The notes below the pieces were generated by a model. The model did no database searches. It was given only the letters and a program-made list of their open reading frames with translations, and had not been told where the DNA came from. A stretch of 7,195 bases of DNA from Hyphomicrobiales bacterium (lineage in GTDB: Bacteria; Pseudomonadota; Alphaproteobacteria; Rhizobiales; Afifellaceae). Position 1 is the stretch's first letter. Each line of letters starts with the position of its first letter. This document shows positions 412 to 6,684 of the stretch, one piece after another. The position numbers were made by a program, and so were the translations under genes. The stretch lies in the NCBI GenBank assembly GCA_013812985.1, contig JACCSN010000268.1, positions 1-7,195 of the forward strand, written 5' to 3'.

Positions 412-472
412 ACGGAGGCGTGAGCGGGCCTTCGACAAAGCGAAAGAGAGCGAGAGGGCCGCGGCTGTCGCC

Positions 473-522
473 GTGACGGGTCTGGAGGTCGAGAGAGAGG
501 CTCCGGCCGGCCCGTCGCGGAG
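473..522 (+). promoter_or_regulatory. Hairpin leader of ardC, candidate radC RNA motif (copy 1)
   Basis: GTGACGGG (473-480) pairs over 8 bp, with one G-U, with CCCGTCGC (511-518). The loop region carries GAGAGAGAGGCTCC (491-504). A short inner GGAG/CTCC pairing (484-487 and 501-504) is possible. One base after the closing stem comes the Shine-Dalgarno GGAG (519-522), seven bases from the ATG of ardC. A near copy sits in the same place before parB (2432-2481). The radC RNA motif is a known structured leader in bacteria, found before genes for DNA-binding and antirestriction proteins. Assignment to that family rests on context and remembered form and needs a covariance-model search. Confidence 0.6.
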
Positions 523-529
523 ACCCGCA

Positions 530-1492
530 ATGCCTCGCTCTTCCCCCTCCCGGTCAGCGCCCGAAGCCGACCGCACCAACCTCTACGACGAGATAACCAC
601 CAGCATCATCGCCGAACTTGAAGCCGGACGGCTTCCCTGGGTGCAGCCCTGGGGCTCATCGGGCGTCTCGGCCCCGCTCTCTATGCCCAAGAATGCCGCG
701 ACCGGACGCGGCTACTCCGGCATAAACATCCTGATCCTCAGGGGCGCCGTGGTCGCCCGCGGCTACTCTTGCCAGAGCTGGCTTACCTTTCGCCAGGCGC
801 TGAGCCTTGGCGGCAATGTCCGCAAGGGCGAGCGCGGCACGACCGTCGTTTACGCCCACCGCTTCGTGCCGGGGGACGAGCGCCAACGCGCCCGCGAGGC
901 CGGCGATGACGCCAAGTCGATCCCCTTTTTGAAGCGCTTCACGGTCTTCTCGACGGATCAATGCGAAGGGCTGCCCGAGGATCTCGTCACCGCTCCGCCG
1001 CCTATTCCAGAGGGACTGATCATTCCCGAGGTAGAAGCGCTGATCCGCGCGAGCGGCGCCGATCTTCGGCTCGGCGGCGACAAAGCCTTCTATGCGCCCG
1101 CGCTCGATTACATCCAGGTGCCTCGGCCCGAGGCATATTTCGAGCCGATCAACTGGCACCGGACCGCGCTCCACGAGCTCGGCCATTGGTCCGGACATAA
1201 CAGCCGGCTCGGGCGCGATCTCTCTGGCGGTTTCGGCTCCGACAGATATGCGCGTGAGGAGCTGGTCGCCGAGATCTGCGCAGCCTTCTGCTGCGCCACG
1301 CTCGGCATCACGCCGACCGTCCGCCACGCCGACTATATCGGCTCGTGGCTCGAGGTGCTGCGCGAGGACTCGAAGGCGATCGTGCGCGCCGCCTCCGCCG
1401 CGTCGAAGGCTGCCGACTATCTGCTCGCGTTCCGGCCCGGCGCCGATCAGCTCGACCCGGAGATCGCCGATGACGAGCGGGAGGCGGCATGA
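530..1492 (+). CDS. ardC: ArdC-type antirestriction protein (zincin-like metallopeptidase)
   Basis: This 320-residue protein has the two-part ArdC layout. An N-terminal ssDNA-binding domain (about residues 15-150) contains LYDEITTSIIAELEAG near its start, a GRGYSGIN motif (59-66) and WLTFRQA (84-90). A C-terminal zincin domain carries HELGH (215-219), with H215, E216 and H219 as zinc ligands and catalytic base. The conserved EELVAE (243-248) follows and should supply the third ligand. ArdC proteins, first described on IncW plasmid pSa, protect incoming single-stranded DNA from restriction during conjugation. I chose the ATG at 530 because GGAG lies seven bases upstream and the parB start has the same arrangement. 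The earlier in-frame GTG at 473 lies inside the hairpin leader. The stop overlaps the next start as ATGA, implying translational coupling. Length and motifs look intact. Confidence 0.9.
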   Translation: MPRSSPSRSAPEADRTNLYDEITTSIIAELEAGRLPWVQPWGSSGVSAPLSMPKNAATGRGYSGINILILRGAVVARGYSCQSWLTFRQALSLGGNVRKGERGTTVVYAHRFVPGDERQRAREAGDDAKSIPFLKRFTVFSTDQCEGLPEDLVTAPPPIPEGLIIPEVEALIRASGADLRLGGDKAFYAPALDYIQVPRPEAYFEPINWHRTALHELGHWSGHNSRLGRDLSGGFGSDRYAREELVAEICAAFCCATLGITPTVRHADYIGSWLEVLREDSKAIVRAASAASKAADYLLAFRPGADQLDPEIADDEREAA

Positions 1493-2421
1493 TGCTCGCC
1501 GCCCCCGCTCCGGATCCCGCCATCCGCCTGCGTGTGCTCAGCCTCGGCGCCGGCGTGCAATCGACGACGCTGGCGCTCATGGCCGCGCATGGTGAGATCG
1601 GGCCGATGCCGGATTTCGCCGCGTTCGCCGACACTGGCTGGGAGCCGGCGGCAGTCTATGATCACCTCGCTTGGCTGCGATCGGGCAACGTGCTGCCGTT
1701 TCCGGTCCACGTCGTCTCGGGCGGGGACATCCGCGCCGACCTGCTGCGCGCTGGCCGCGGCGAACGCTGGGCGTCGATCCCGGCGTTCACGCGCAGCGTG
1801 CGGGGTGTGCGCATCGACATCGGCATGATCCGCCGCCAATGCACCAAGGACTACAAAATCGTGCCGATCCGAAGGAAGGTCCGGGCGCTCGCCGGCCTGA
1901 CCCGGCGCCGCTCGCCGAAGGCGCCGCTCGTCGAACAATGGATTGGCATCTCGCGTGACGAGGCGATCCGCGTGAAGCCGAGCTTCGAGACGTGGCAGGT
2001 GAACCGCTGGCCGCTGATCGAACGAGGCATGACCCGCCGCGACTGCTTGCGCTGGCTCGCACGCCACGGCTATCCGACCCCGCCGAAGAGCAGCTGCATC
2101 GGCTGCCCGTTCCACAGCGATGCCGCATGGCGCCAACTGCGCGACGAGGATGCCGACGCCTGGGCGTCGGCGGTCGAAGTCGACAGAGCGATCCGCACCG
2201 GCGTGCGCGGCGTGCGCGGCGAGGTCTTCCTGCACCGCTCAGCCGTTCCCCTCGACGAAGCGGATCTGTCGACGCCGAGGACGCGGGCCAGCTCGACCTG
2301 TGGGGTAACGAGTGCGAGGGCATGTGCGGCGTGTGACGCGGCGCGGAGGTGGCCGCCGCGCTCGGAATGGCCAGCGTCGATTCCGGCGTCAGGCGGCGGC
2401 GCCCTAGAGGAAGAGGGCTGA
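1489..2421 (+). CDS. PAPS-reductase-like PP-loop ATPase, C-terminus frameshifted
   Basis: The protein belongs to the phosphoadenosine phosphosulfate reductase-like group of PP-loop ATPases common on mobile elements. Visible motifs are a variant PP-loop SLGAGVQST (18-26), FADTGWE (46-52), RQCTKDYK (116-123) and a CxxC pair in SSCIGCPFH (201-209). PP-loop enzymes adenylate a substrate; the cysteines suggest sulfur or metal chemistry, but the substrate of this subgroup is not known. The start overlaps the ardC stop (ATGA at 1489-1492); a second ATG follows at once. After residue S261 the reading frame runs into an unrelated 49-residue tail. Restoring one base near 2271 gives a 282-residue protein stopping at 2336 and ending GQLDLWGNECEGMCGV, the tail I expect for this family. 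The present sequence therefore loses a conserved Cys-containing end through a one-base deletion, either real or a sequencing error. Confidence 0.8.
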   Translation: MMLAAPAPDPAIRLRVLSLGAGVQSTTLALMAAHGEIGPMPDFAAFADTGWEPAAVYDHLAWLRSGNVLPFPVHVVSGGDIRADLLRAGRGERWASIPAFTRSVRGVRIDIGMIRRQCTKDYKIVPIRRKVRALAGLTRRRSPKAPLVEQWIGISRDEAIRVKPSFETWQVNRWPLIERGMTRRDCLRWLARHGYPTPPKSSCIGCPFHSDAAWRQLRDEDADAWASAVEVDRAIRTGVRGVRGEVFLHRSAVPLDEADLSTPRTRASSTCGVTSARACAACDAARRWPPRSEWPASIPASGGGALEEEG

Positions 2422-2431
2422 GCGGAGCTTC
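2337..2431 (+). other. Gap between PP-loop gene and parB leader, short inverted repeats
   Basis: If the PP-loop gene truly ends at 2336, this short stretch is non-coding. It holds GC-rich inverted pieces near 2338-2362 (GCGCGG with CCGCGC) and GCCCT/AGGGC flanking 2401-2418. Neither is followed by a T-run, so I do not call a terminator. Confidence 0.25.
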
Positions 2432-2481
2432 GTGACGGGTCGAGGGCCGAGAGAGAGGCTCCCGGCCGGCCCGTCGCGGAG
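2432..2481 (+). promoter_or_regulatory. Hairpin leader of parB, candidate radC RNA motif (copy 2)
   Basis: GTGACGGG (2432-2439) pairs with CCCGTCGC (2470-2477), the same two strands as in the ardC leader at 473-518 and at the same 46-nt span. The core GAGAGAGAGGCTCC (2449-2462) is identical too. The intervening bases differ by substitutions and compensating one-base indels, so the copies are related but not a recent exact duplication. GGAG (2478-2481) follows one base after the stem, seven bases from the ATG of parB. An alternative GGCCG/CGGCC inner stem (2445-2449 and 2463-2467) is possible here. Attribution to the radC RNA family is unverified. Confidence 0.6.
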
Positions 2482-2488
2482 AACCGAC

Positions 2489-4267
2489 ATGGCTCAAGCT
2501 GCCCAGAAGATCGTCCTCAGCACGTCGCAGGACATCCCGTTCAACAAGCTCATCCTTTCCCAGTCGAACGTCCGGCGCGTGAAGGCCGGCGTCTCGATCG
2601 AGCAGCTCGCAGAAAGCATCGCGCGCTGCAATCTGATCCAGAGCCTCAGCGTCCGGCCCGTGCTGGGCGACGACGGCCAGGAGACCGGCATGTTCGAGGT
2701 GCCGGCCGGCGGCCGGCGCTACCGCGCCCTCGAACTGCTCGTGAAGCAGAAGCGCCTCGCCAAGGCCGCACCGGTCCCGTGCGTCGTCAAGGCGGCGGAT
2801 GACGTGACCTCGGCCGAGGAGGACTCGTTCGTCGAGAACGACGAGCGCGTTTCGCTGCATCCGCTCGACCAGTTCCGCGCCTTTCAGACCCTGCGCGAGC
2901 AGGGCCAGGGCGAGGAGGAGATCGCCGCCCGCTTCTTCGTCACCCCCGCAATCGTCAAGCAGCGGCTGCGCCTCGCAACCGTCAGCCCGAAGCTGCTCGA
3001 CCTCTACGCCGAAGACGGCATGACGCTTGAGCAACTCATGGCGTTCAGCGTCACGGCCGACCACGCCCGCCAGGAGCAGGTCTGGGACGCGCTCGCGCGT
3101 TCGCCCTACAAGGAAGCCTATCAGATCCGCCGCATGCTGACCGAAGGCGCGGTGCGCGCCACCGACCGGCGCGCACAGCTGATCGGAATCGAGGCGTATG
3201 AAGCGGCGGGTGGCGTCGTGCTGCGCGACTTGTTCCAGCATGACGACGGCGGCTGGTTGCAGGATCCCGTGCTCCTCGACCGGCTCGTCATCGAGAAGCT
3301 GCAGGCCGAAGCGCAGGCCATCGCCGGCGAAGGCTGGAAGGGGATCGAGGTCGCGATCGACTTCCCCTACGGCCACAGCACGGGCCTTCGGAAGCTGCGG
3401 GCCACCGGCCCGGTGTTCACCGACGAGGAGCAGGTGACCTACGACGCGCTCCAGTCCGAATACGGCGCGCTCGAGGGGCAATATGCCGAGTCGCAGGAAG
3501 ACCTGCCGGACGAAATCGATCAGCGCCTCGGCGAGATCGAGGCGGCGCTCGACGCCTTCCACAACCGTCCGCCGACCTTCGACCTGGATGAGGTCGCACG
3601 GGCCGGCGCGTTCGTCAGCGTCGGCGCCTCGGGCGAGCTGAAGGTCGAGCGCGGCTATGTGCGGCACGAGGACGAGGCTCCGGCCGCGCCGCCGGAAGCG
3701 GCGAGCGGCGAGGGCGAGGTCGACCCGGCCGGCCCGGCGACGGGCGAGCCTCCTGCGGTCCAGCGGGCGGTCATCACCATCGGCGGCGCCGAGCCGCCCG
3801 AGCCGGCGGAGGAGGATGAGGGGCTGAAGCCGCTCCCTGAGCGCCTGATGATGGAGCTGACCGCCCATCGCACCTTGGCTCTGCGCGACGCCGTCGCCAA
3901 CGACCCGCACGTTGCTCTCACGCTCCTCCTGCACAAGCTCGTCCTCGACACCTTCGTGCGCACGTCCACCGCGGGCGGGTGCCTCGAAGCTTCCGTCCGG
4001 CACGTCTTCTTCTCGGCGCAAGCTGCCGATCTGAAGGACAGCCCGTCGGCGAAAGCTGTTGGCGAGCGGCAGGACGCCTGGAGCACCGACTTGCGCTTGG
4101 GCGACGACCAAGCCCTGTGGGACTGGCTCGACGCGCTGGATCAGGCGAGCCGCATTGCGCTCCTGGCGCACTGCGTCAGCTACGGCGTCAACGCCTTGTT
4201 CGAGAAGGTCGACCGCTACGGCGGGGCCGGCCTGTCGCAGCACGGCCTTGAGCGCCGTCTCGGCTAG
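2489..4267 (+). CDS. parB: Large ParB/Spo0J-family protein, truncated by in-frame TAG
   Basis: As read, the gene encodes 592 residues. The N-terminal ParB domain (about 15-115) includes SQSNVRR (25-31), LAESIARCNLIQ (40-51) and the CTP/parS-associated box GGRRYRALELL (74-84). ENDERVSLHPLDQFRAF (116-132) leads into a helix-turn-helix region near 140-165. The middle holds a long family-specific segment, and residues about 410-460 are Pro/Glu/Ala-rich linker. ParB proteins bind centromere-like sites and act in segregation or as regulators; this long form is typical of alphaproteobacterial mobile elements and usually has no adjacent parA, as here. The ATG at 2489 has GGAG seven bases upstream; the in-frame GTG at 2432 is inside the leader hairpin. 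TAG at 4265-4267 interrupts the frame, which stays open and family-like to 4633. An uninterrupted gene would give about 714 residues. Confidence 0.85.
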   Translation: MAQAAQKIVLSTSQDIPFNKLILSQSNVRRVKAGVSIEQLAESIARCNLIQSLSVRPVLGDDGQETGMFEVPAGGRRYRALELLVKQKRLAKAAPVPCVVKAADDVTSAEEDSFVENDERVSLHPLDQFRAFQTLREQGQGEEEIAARFFVTPAIVKQRLRLATVSPKLLDLYAEDGMTLEQLMAFSVTADHARQEQVWDALARSPYKEAYQIRRMLTEGAVRATDRRAQLIGIEAYEAAGGVVLRDLFQHDDGGWLQDPVLLDRLVIEKLQAEAQAIAGEGWKGIEVAIDFPYGHSTGLRKLRATGPVFTDEEQVTYDALQSEYGALEGQYAESQEDLPDEIDQRLGEIEAALDAFHNRPPTFDLDEVARAGAFVSVGASGELKVERGYVRHEDEAPAAPPEAASGEGEVDPAGPATGEPPAVQRAVITIGGAEPPEPAEEDEGLKPLPERLMMELTAHRTLALRDAVANDPHVALTLLLHKLVLDTFVRTSTAGGCLEASVRHVFFSAQAADLKDSPSAKAVGERQDAWSTDLRLGDDQALWDWLDALDQASRIALLAHCVSYGVNALFEKVDRYGGAGLSQHGLERRLG

Positions 4268-4633
4268 GCGGATCGGCTCGCGCGGGCGGTCAGCCTCGAC
4301 ATGGCCGAGGCCGGCTGGACGCCGACGGTCGACAACTATCTCGGCCGAGTCACCAAGGGGCGGATCCTCGAAGCGGTCCGCGAAGCGAAGGGCGAGCAGG
4401 CGTCCCAGCTCATCGACCATCTAAAGAAGGGCGACATGGCGAAGGAAGCTGAGCGGCTGCTCGACGGCTCCGGCTGGCTCCCCGAACCGCTGCGCACGCC
4501 GGAGACCCTTGATGGCGATGCGGCGGAGGCAAGCGCCGACGCCGAGCTGCCCGCCTTCCTCTCCGACGACGAGCAGCACGAGCAGGCCGAAGCCGACGAG
4601 CCCGAAGCGGCCCACGCGATCGCCGCCGAGTGA
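4268..4633 (+). pseudogene. Detached C-terminal segment of parB
   Basis: This is the same reading frame as parB, continuing directly after the TAG at 4265-4267 for 121 residues. It begins ADRLARAVSLDMAEAGWTP and contains VDNYLGRVTKGRILEAVREA and IDHLKKGDMAKEAERLL, which I recognise as the usual C-terminal region of these long ParB proteins. An acidic tail follows. An ATG at 4301 could restart translation, but I see no ribosome binding site before it. A single G-to-T change (GAG to TAG) would explain the break. It could be a separate small product, readthrough, or a dead remnant; a remnant or a sequence error seems most likely. Confidence 0.65.
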
Positions 4634-4641
4634 CCAACCCC

Positions 4642-4676
4642 GCCCGGAGCGCATCCACGCTCCGGGCGACCTTTTT
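4642..4676 (+). terminator. Stem-loop with T-run after parB
   Basis: GCCCGGAGCG (4642-4651) and CGCTCCGGGC (4658-4667) form a perfect 10-bp stem with a 6-nt loop. GACC and five T bases (4672-4676) follow. This is a plausible intrinsic terminator of the ardC-parB transcript. The Shine-Dalgarno of the next gene begins only three bases after the T-run, so it might act instead as an attenuator or RNA-stability element. Confidence 0.65.
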
Positions 4677-4691
4677 CCAGGAGAGATTTCC

Positions 4692-5183
4692 ATGACCACC
4701 ACGACCGCCAACCCCGCAACCGCCACGCCGGCCTACTCGCCGGATTATGCCGCCTACCTCGCCCGCGAAGCCGAGCGCACTCGCCTTGCAGATGAACTCC
4801 GGCCCGCAAACAAGGCTGCCCTGTTGGATGCCCTCGCGGCGGCAGGAATCACCCTCGTTGTCGTCGCCTTCGATGGCTGCGGCGATTCCGGGCAGATCGA
4901 ATCCGTGACCGCTTGGACGGGGGACAAGCCGATCGCGCTTCCCGCCACCATCGTGGAGCTCGCCGCCCCGTCATGGGACGGCCCGGACGTGGAGTGCCGC
5001 TCCGAACCCGTCGAGAAGGCGATCGAGTCGCTCGCCTACGCCTTCCTCAAGCAGACGCACGGCGGCTGGGAGAACAATGACGGCGCCTATGGCGAGTTCA
5101 GCTTCGACGTCGCCGCCCGCACGATCATGCTCGACTACAACGAGCGTTACGTCGCGACCGAATCCTACGAGCACGCGTTCTGA
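4692..5183 (+). CDS. DUF6878 family protein
   Basis: This 163-residue, acidic, apparently soluble protein has no signal peptide or membrane segment. A Thr/Ala-rich start is followed by a helical stretch (about 18-50). Next comes a strand leading into FDGCGDSGQIE (60-70), the signature I associate with DUF6878. A later region holds ETHGGWENNDG-like sequence (here THGGWENNDGAYGEF, 122-136) and an aromatic C-terminus. The biochemical function is unknown; such genes are common on alphaproteobacterial plasmids and integrative elements near ardC and parB. AGGAG at 4679-4683, eight bases before the ATG, supports this start over upstream in-frame ATGs within the parB tail. The next gene's Shine-Dalgarno starts at the stop codon, implying coupled translation. 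The family name is from memory and was not searched. Confidence 0.8.
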   Translation: MTTTTANPATATPAYSPDYAAYLAREAERTRLADELRPANKAALLDALAAAGITLVVVAFDGCGDSGQIESVTAWTGDKPIALPATIVELAAPSWDGPDVECRSEPVEKAIESLAYAFLKQTHGGWENNDGAYGEFSFDVAARTIMLDYNERYVATESYEHAF

Positions 5184-6165: not shown

Positions 6166-6192
6166 CGCTCCGCACATCCATTCAACCCCGAG

Positions 6193-6223
6193 AGCCCGGC
6201 CTTCGCGCCGGGCTTTCGCGTTT
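6193..6223 (+). terminator. Stem-loop before the 6237 gene
   Basis: AGCCCGGC (6193-6200) and GCCGGGCT (6207-6214) form a perfect 8-bp stem with a CTTCGC loop, followed by TTCGCGTTT. It resembles an intrinsic terminator with an interrupted T-tract. The next gene's AGGAG starts at 6225, almost directly after. Confidence 0.5.
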
Positions 6224-6236
6224 CAGGAGAAGACCC

Positions 6237-6637: not shown

Positions 6638-6666
6638 GAACGGCTCGCCCTCCAAGCGGGCCGTTC
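6638..6666 (+). terminator. Stem-loop before the DUF6927-like gene
   Basis: GAACGGCTCGC (6638-6648) pairs with GCGGGCCGTTC (6656-6666) over 11 bp, with one T-G wobble and a 7-nt loop. Only TCAGTT follows rather than a T-run, and AGGAGG of the next gene begins at 6674. Terminator activity is uncertain; an RNA-stabilising or translation-controlling hairpin is equally possible. Confidence 0.4.
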
Positions 6667-6684
6667 TCAGTTCAGGAGGCCGCC

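Follow-up and report, generated by a model that had tools for sequence, protein, structure and literature searches.

A conserved RNA leader before ardC, parB-like and other plasmid genes of Alphaproteobacteria, a candidate translational operator

A structured leader before two genes of one contig

The contig JACCSN010000268.1 of a Hyphomicrobiales bacterium (assembly GCA_013812985.1; 7,195 nucleotides, all of which were analysed and are called the window below) carries a leader of the same kind directly upstream of its ardC-like gene and of its parB-like gene. Our comparison with homologous sequences indicates that this leader is a conserved structured RNA in which the mRNA-sense strand folds, and in the predicted fold the 3' strand of its hairpin continues into the Shine-Dalgarno sequence and thus hides the ribosome site. 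The leader family is widespread in Alphaproteobacteria and apparently unlisted. From sequence comparison and modelled folds, we give slightly better than even chances to its being a cis-regulatory mRNA leader, that is, a translational operator common to the genes of a plasmid establishment regulon in Alphaproteobacteria.

In fact, the two copies had been pointed out in an earlier note on this DNA as elements of 46 nt at 473-518 and 2432-2477, and they are found as described: the 8-bp strands GTGACGGG / CCCGTCGC are the same in both, the 14-nt core GAGAGAGAGGCTCC (491-504 and 2449-2462) shows no difference between the copies, and seven bases separate GGAG from ATG in each. One detail has to be corrected, as the single base placed between stem and GGAG does not exist; GGAG abuts the 8-bp stem with 0 bases between. 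The core has two sites in the window, both exact with up to two mismatches permitted, where 0.15 are expected and none of 200 shuffles reaches two, which agrees with the view of the note that the repetition is not chance. Against dinucleotide shuffles the folds of the two leaders have z values of -2.94 and -2.93, with 0 and 1 of 200 shuffles equally good. Because homologues show a wider conservation, the element is longer than 46 nt and extends over about 445-523 and 2404-2482 (Table 1). The parts beyond the earlier description are an upstream purine box, an inner stem with an AGAGG loop, a predicted pairing of the Shine-Dalgarno sequence with the bases immediately 5' of the outer stem, and hundreds of homologous leaders elsewhere. 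As a separate observation on the ardC copy in the window, the purine box (446-453) pairs with the first ardC codons in the predicted fold.

Distribution and anatomy of the leader family

A covariance model, R1, with 15 seeds and 77 positions was searched against the window and 128 fetched loci (numbered with L below), giving 222 untruncated copies at 37.6 bits or more, with the next match below at 25.7 bits; 222 is a copy count and not a frequency, since the loci were fetched for holding a copy. Dropped were 11 of the 130 matches of the first R1 search (below 37.6 bits) and 17 of the 123 of the second (from 24.9 bits down), together with three cut by contig ends (L102, L108, L096). A later set, from which one cut match was dropped (L138:3019-3079), goes from 303 to 288 distinct copies once duplicates are removed, and counts 280 distinct elements when a length of 60 nt or more is required. 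By blastn with window positions 440-535, 133 of 72,556 plasmid records match at E<=0.01; the 60 listed among them are all from alphaproteobacterial genera, and the taxonomy lines of eight fetched records name five alphaproteobacterial orders. At least 120 stretches match in a pattern scan of a one-genome-per-species collection, and the titles among the matches listed are mostly of alphaproteobacterial genera, with one gammaproteobacterial metagenome-assembled genome and several that say just Proteobacteria. In samples not picked for the leader, 27 of 385 genomes (class sample) and 33 of 398 (phylum sample) have a match at E<=1e-5, where both samples include the centre genome G004 and some genomes are in both. 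The 16 genomes chosen as carriers have 2-11 matches each at E<=0.001, and eight matches are on plasmid NZ_CP076395. Three stretches with the exact pattern, one of them with three copies, were also met among the putatively viral sequences of the viral_contigs collection (L250, L251, L252).

In the hairpin of the family, the outer stem TGACGGG/CCCGTCR (7 bp) is joined through a 5' bulge to an inner stem of about 8 bp that closes an AGAGN loop, and in most copies the outer stem can be extended by a CTTCG- or TTCCG-like strand against CGGAG, which draws the Shine-Dalgarno sequence into the helix. In the conservation profile, made from the 193 of 222 copies that can be anchored on GACGGG (29 with an altered hexamer are left out), there is no conservation above -28, where the AGAG-nn-AGAGG box starts abruptly and reaches up to about 1 bit per base; the box is followed by a less conserved stretch and then by CGTGACGGG. 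No promoter motif of the -35/-10 type is conserved upstream of the box in this profile, and no T-run is seen after the hairpin in the window copies and the aligned relatives. Moreover, an open reading frame (ORF) in sense orientation directly follows the leader in 217 of the 222 copies, and the start codon lies 6-8 nt past the leader end in 213 of them. A tandem arrangement occurs in L187, where leaders at 186-265 and 327-405 stand ahead of one parB-like gene and the scan gives no start codon after the first.

Evidence for an RNA fold on the mRNA-sense strand

The fold was evaluated in a bias-reduced alignment of 74 distinct sequences, taken from the 77 copies that do not match the search pattern (six of the 77 are R1 seeds) and aligned without structure. 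As many as 91.6% of the 1470 cells are paired, and double changes occur at 15 of the 20 pairs (103 cells) and at all eight pairs of the inner stem, while all 500 shuffles stay below these data on each of five measures, and in controls with the partner shifted by 1-3 columns the paired share is 37-50%. RNAalifold gives 17 pairs on this alignment, every one within the 20 analysed. When column pairs are ranked by a G score with average product correction, the top four of 2775 are structure pairs in 122 non-pattern copies, and for all 280 elements the best three are structure pairs, with two more within the best nine.

The strand that folds can be read from the wobble pairs. Over the 280 elements, G.U cells exceed A.C cells by 194 to 15 in the outer stem and by 293 to 92 in the inner stem, together 487 versus 107, and they do so at 13 of the 15 outer and inner pairs, with most G.U cells at four pairs. 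This excess argues for a fold on the sense (mRNA) strand. The extension into the Shine-Dalgarno sequence has 340 G.U versus 25 A.C cells and is kept out of the argument, because the Shine-Dalgarno sequence fixes its 3' side. The conserved RNA structure that the earlier note had proposed is thus borne out by the double changes in the stems, the proportion of paired cells, the shuffles and the G.U asymmetry.

Accessibility of the Shine-Dalgarno sequence

In the predicted folds of 287 leaders, GGAG has an unpaired probability of 0.18 on average (median 0.08). The value is 0.31 (median 0.26) for 270 other ORFs of at least 120 amino acids that have GGAG and were picked mechanically from the same loci, and 0.49 in 100 leaders whose sequence upstream of GGAG was shuffled. 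Among the large classes the site is tightest before parB (mean 0.12), followed by ardC (0.16) and DUF932 (0.22).

Genes behind the leader

The genes after the 288 distinct copies are parB-like in 131 cases, ardC in 64, DUF932 in 53 and members of a family of about 180 amino acids in 23, and the remaining ones are one PAPS-like gene, one radC, seven others and eight short or missing ORFs. The labels come from blastp to reference proteins; the RadC domain and a sub-threshold DUF932 match come from Pfam, and DUF932 is also found in record annotation. As for gene order, ardC is followed by parB in 33 of 127 sources and DUF932 by parB in 25. A sharp dependence on protein identity is found in a class sample of 289 genomes. 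The leader stands directly upstream of the parB-like gene in 21 of 21 loci whose protein is 49% or more identical to that of the window, and in one of nine below (30 of 33 matches came as loci), and for ardC it is present in nine of nine at 65% or more and in none of 21 at 63% or less (30 of 47 matches came as loci). The leader thus tracks one clade of mobile modules, not the gene families as wholes.

The family of about 180 amino acids (for example behind L005:9880-9951, L011:951-1027 and L025:1101-1179) gave no Pfam match when one complete member and the beginning of a second were searched, and it is a candidate establishment or anti-defence gene. Behind the leader L043:1188-1263 the ORF is of 969 amino acids and matches both ArdC and ParB, and apparently runs through into the following gene. 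Another leader, L143:2045-2120, stands before a protein of 126 amino acids which by eye has the look of an AlpA-type regulator, and is possibly a lead to a regulator.

Position on conjugative plasmids

The position was determined on 14 records typed conjugative, leaving out eight typed non-mobilizable (L002, L004-L008, L259, L266). Twelve of the 14 have a PF03432 relaxase, all typed MOBP, and hold 42 leaders, four of which are weak (25-37 bits). On the strand of a relaxase and 12-61 kb upstream of it lie 36 of the 42, with at least one such leader in each of the twelve records; in the eleven with all relaxases on a single strand, this is also the strand of 33 of 34 leaders, and NZ_CP076395 has relaxases on both. 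Since W09, W13, W14 and W16 look like one backbone, the twelve records are not twelve independent cases. For example in the conjugative NZ_CP022197, leaders are found before the parB-like gene, before one that follows closely on ssb and before the one after radC, with toxin-antitoxin and defence genes around them and with mobC and the relaxase further along on the same strand. An oriT is usually located just upstream of the relaxase operon. If it is so here, the MOBP pattern is as expected for a leading region, the side being judged from the relaxase position. On the same condition, the orientation of these leaders is that which the available part of PMC11541004 reports for anti-defence genes.

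Other features of the window

The features of the window are collected in Table 1. The ORF between the two leader genes, which we take to be PAPS-reductase-like, has no Pfam or NCBIfam match, and its relative in L001 carries a leader of its own (L001:5515-5592). The match to this relative stops at residue 268, and the last 18 residues of the relative match another frame near ~2260-2340, so that the gene seems to be frameshifted near its end. In the ParB-like protein, ParB_N scores 25.7 bits, just below the Pfam cut-off of 26.3, and the NCBIfam ParB matches are weak and all under their cut-offs. The relatives of this protein have a median of 706 amino acids (107 proteins) versus 592 in the window, and a stretch of 110 amino acids (4301-4633), in frame after the TAG, matches the C-terminal part of intact relatives at 66-70% (six best matches). 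Further downstream lies a DUF6878 gene (4692-5183, Pfam); elsewhere a weak leader-like match (L253:23003-23090; 17.8 bits, E 0.005) is directly before a DUF6878 gene. A different GC-rich inverted repeat, followed by AGGAG before the next ATG, was noticed by eye in the intergenic parts 4637-4690, 6180-6236 and 6640-6684, and is possibly a terminator plus ribosome site.

Table 1. Leaders, their parts and the adjoining genes in the window
Feature	Position	Strand	Remarks
Leader before ardC, entire	445-523	+	About 79 nt; R1 75.7 bits; one of the 15 R1 seeds; borders from 193 copies
AGAGnnAGAG purine box, ardC leader	447-456	+	Alignment and conservation profile
Outer stem, 5' strand, ardC leader	473-480	+	Fold; covariation in relatives
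Inner stem, 5' arm, ardC leader	487-495	+	One bulged base; partner 501-508; predicted fold and covariation in relatives
AGAGG loop, ardC leader	496-500	+	Predicted fold; alignment
Outer stem, 3' strand, ardC leader	511-518	+	Fold; covariation in relatives
Shine-Dalgarno GGAG, ardC	519-522	+	Three of four bases predicted paired (469, 471, 472); unpaired probabilities 0, 0, 1, 0.01
ardC-like gene	530-1492	+	ArdcN and MPTase-PolyVal domains (Pfam)
PAPS-reductase-like ORF (presumed)	1489-2421	+	Between the two leader genes; 68% identity to L001 protein, residues 12-268
Leader before parB, entire	2404-2482	+	About 79 nt; R1 81.7 bits; also an R1 seed
AGAGnnAGAG purine box, parB leader	2406-2415	+	Inside 3' end of upstream ORF
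Outer stem, 5' strand, parB leader	2432-2439	+	Fold; covariation in relatives
AGAGG loop, parB leader	2454-2458	+	Predicted fold
Outer stem, 3' strand, parB leader	2470-2477	+	Fold; covariation in relatives
Shine-Dalgarno GGAG, parB	2478-2481	+	Four of four bases predicted paired (2428-2431); unpaired probabilities 0, 0, 0, 0
ParB-like gene	2489-4267	+	592 amino acids; stop TAG at 4265-4267

A candidate translational operator and its alternatives

As a translational operator, the leader would keep translation low in an established cell through its fold, and its opening would depend on a factor acting in trans, most probably an RNA-binding protein that recognises AGAG in box and loop. The products of the leader genes would thereby appear together, most probably as a burst once transfer has taken place. 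More specifically, and here we are rather doubtful, a plasmid-encoded RNA-binding repressor reading AGAG may keep entry and anti-defence genes silent in the donor, and in a new recipient, where the repressor is missing, all of them may be freed at once, which would amount to a translational zygotic induction. The leader being common to ardC, parB-like and DUF932 genes and one radC, a joint control around host entry is plausible, and the leading-region-like position on conjugative plasmids strengthens it. Of the co-regulation of DNA protection and partition upon entry into a new host, which the earlier note had considered, the joint control of DNA-protection and ParB-like genes is plausible, and the ParB-like protein, with a ParB_N score of 25.7 bits against a cut-off of 26.3, may or may not act in partition. 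If such a repressor is real, the leader would also tag uncharacterised anti-defence genes in Alphaproteobacteria (DUF932, the family of about 180 amino acids, the PAPS-like gene); as a search handle for candidates of this kind it is simple to use.

Several observations weigh against this interpretation. In the class sample no leader is found at 21 of 30 ardC loci and eight of 30 parB-like loci, so that these genes do not as a rule depend on it. As to the fold, the collection of homologous leaders that the earlier note had suggested does give covariation in the stem by double changes and by G-score ranks, and our home-made tree-based nulls gave no covarying pair at E<0.05; we rely on the ranks, because the tree null looks miscalibrated, its background being too heavy: above a score of 20 it has 86 pairs per alignment, versus 22 observed outside the structure. 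All copies used came from R1, a model that rewards pairing, and A.C exceeds G.U at two of the 15 outer and inner pairs (51 versus 11; 25 versus 7). The Shine-Dalgarno pairing is less sure than the hairpin, with 85.1% of cells paired and double changes at three of five pairs in just eight cells, and the class of about 180 amino acids has the most open site (mean 0.44). On the MOBP plasmids six of the 42 leaders are misplaced (two of eight on NZ_CP076395, four of seven on NZ_CP017782), and on the MOBQ plasmid NZ_CP063363, one of two MOBQ records, the leader is on the traA strand but on the 3' side of traA.

The alternative that survives best, unlikely in our opinion and yet to be taken seriously, is a transcription element, in which box and hairpin act on RNA polymerase and not on ribosomes. 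The lambda nut site, a box plus hairpin acting on RNA polymerase, has a layout which the box and purine-loop hairpin of the leader resemble, and the sequence above the box shows no conserved promoter motif. Moreover, EGeRS1 before ardC of plasmid pLS20 blocks readthrough according to the available part of PMC8708921. A polymerase-only element would, however, need neither a hairpin abutting the Shine-Dalgarno sequence nor a start codon at 6-8 nt, as in 213 of 222 copies; besides, the Shine-Dalgarno sequence is more closed than in the control ORFs, and no T-run follows the hairpin. Somewhat less probable again is a static, regulator-free structure, serving to damp translation or to protect the mRNA: a stable fold with a closed Shine-Dalgarno sequence requires no ligand, but the conserved purine box and the loop are left unexplained by it, and so is the recurrence of the leader on unrelated proteins.

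A single-stranded DNA promoter of the Frpo/ssi type, folding in the transferred strand, would suit the place and orientation of the leaders, which fit leading-region genes, where Frpo promoters occur (PMC11541004, in its available part). We regard it as very improbable, for with the relaxase taken as the mark of the lagging side, it is the template strand that is transferred, and on it the sense G.U cells become A.C (487 versus 107); there is no conserved -35/-10-like motif, and the hairpin ends at the Shine-Dalgarno sequence. A double-stranded DNA operator bound by a ParB-like or other repressor has even less to commend it: an inverted repeat does stand ahead of most parB-like genes found, but a duplex treats both strands alike, so that the wobble asymmetry is unexpected; the double changes at all eight inner pairs and the fixed distance to the start codon speak against it too. 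The counts of G.U and A.C thus disfavour both. Finally, an in-frame N-terminal extension of the protein from the GTG at 473 or 2432, 57 nt before the ATG in both window copies, has practically no chance, being refuted as a general explanation by the spread of GTG-to-start phases (64/76/50 for phases 0/1/2) and the in-frame stops (123) in 190 GACGGG copies, and the in-frame GTGs of the window are a coincidence.

Comparison with known systems

The radC RNA is found upstream of DNA-acting genes, radC and antirestriction genes among them, and its gene classes overlap with those of the leader, whose genes (131 parB-like, 64 ardC, 53 DUF932 and one radC in 288 copies) accord with such a placement. 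Like the leader it is a candidate structured RNA of Proteobacteria, as PMC2864571 describes it in the part available. The identity with radC RNA that the earlier note had put forward finds no support: its model RF01754 has 149 positions versus 77 in the leader model, and gives no match in the window (E<=5) or in the two leaders (E<=10). Over its gathering score of 40 bits it has no match in ten related genomes or plasmids, and none in 14 control genomes either, so that a positive control is lacking; the weak matches in the ten related records do not overlap any leader. Membership in radC RNA is accordingly rejected. Since eight related loci, with 118,806 bases in all, have no match to an Rfam 15 family at its gathering score, and no description of the leader was found among the titles and abstracts listed from the open-access literature, we apparently deal with an unlisted family of cis-regulatory RNA leaders.

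Translational operators that hide the Shine-Dalgarno sequence are known from ribosomal-protein leaders and ROSE thermometers; the leader shares with them a hairpin pairing with the ribosome site, and differs in targeting plasmid genes and in having no Rfam 15 match. The Frpo/ssi elements of F-like plasmids are likewise tied to leading-region, anti-defence genes, but as far as PMC11541004 is available, Frpo is a folded promoter with -35/-10 in the transferred DNA strand, while the leader folds on the other, mRNA-sense strand and carries a Shine-Dalgarno sequence.

Within the available part of PMC8708921, the establishment regulon of the Bacillus plasmids pLS20 and p576 comes nearest in function, and it too was recognised through a leader that ardC has in common with other operons. 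There EGeRS1, of 420-750 bp with many inverted repeats, lies before ardC of pLS20, and EGeRS2 comprises promoters under the regulator Reg (pLS20, p576); both are, like the leader, a common sequence upstream, at the ribosome site, of ardC and other operons of conjugative plasmids, and define an establishment regulon. The present leader differs from them in being about 79 nt long, in belonging to Alphaproteobacteria, in its mRNA-sense fold, and in including the Shine-Dalgarno sequence. That plasmid entry genes are expressed early has been reported, in the parts of the two papers available, for enterobacterial plasmids through single-stranded DNA promoters (PMC11541004) and for Bacillus plasmids through EGeRS (PMC8708921). 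In Alphaproteobacteria a compact RNA tag would mark such entry genes, which makes the regulon visible and suggests a control at the level of translation.

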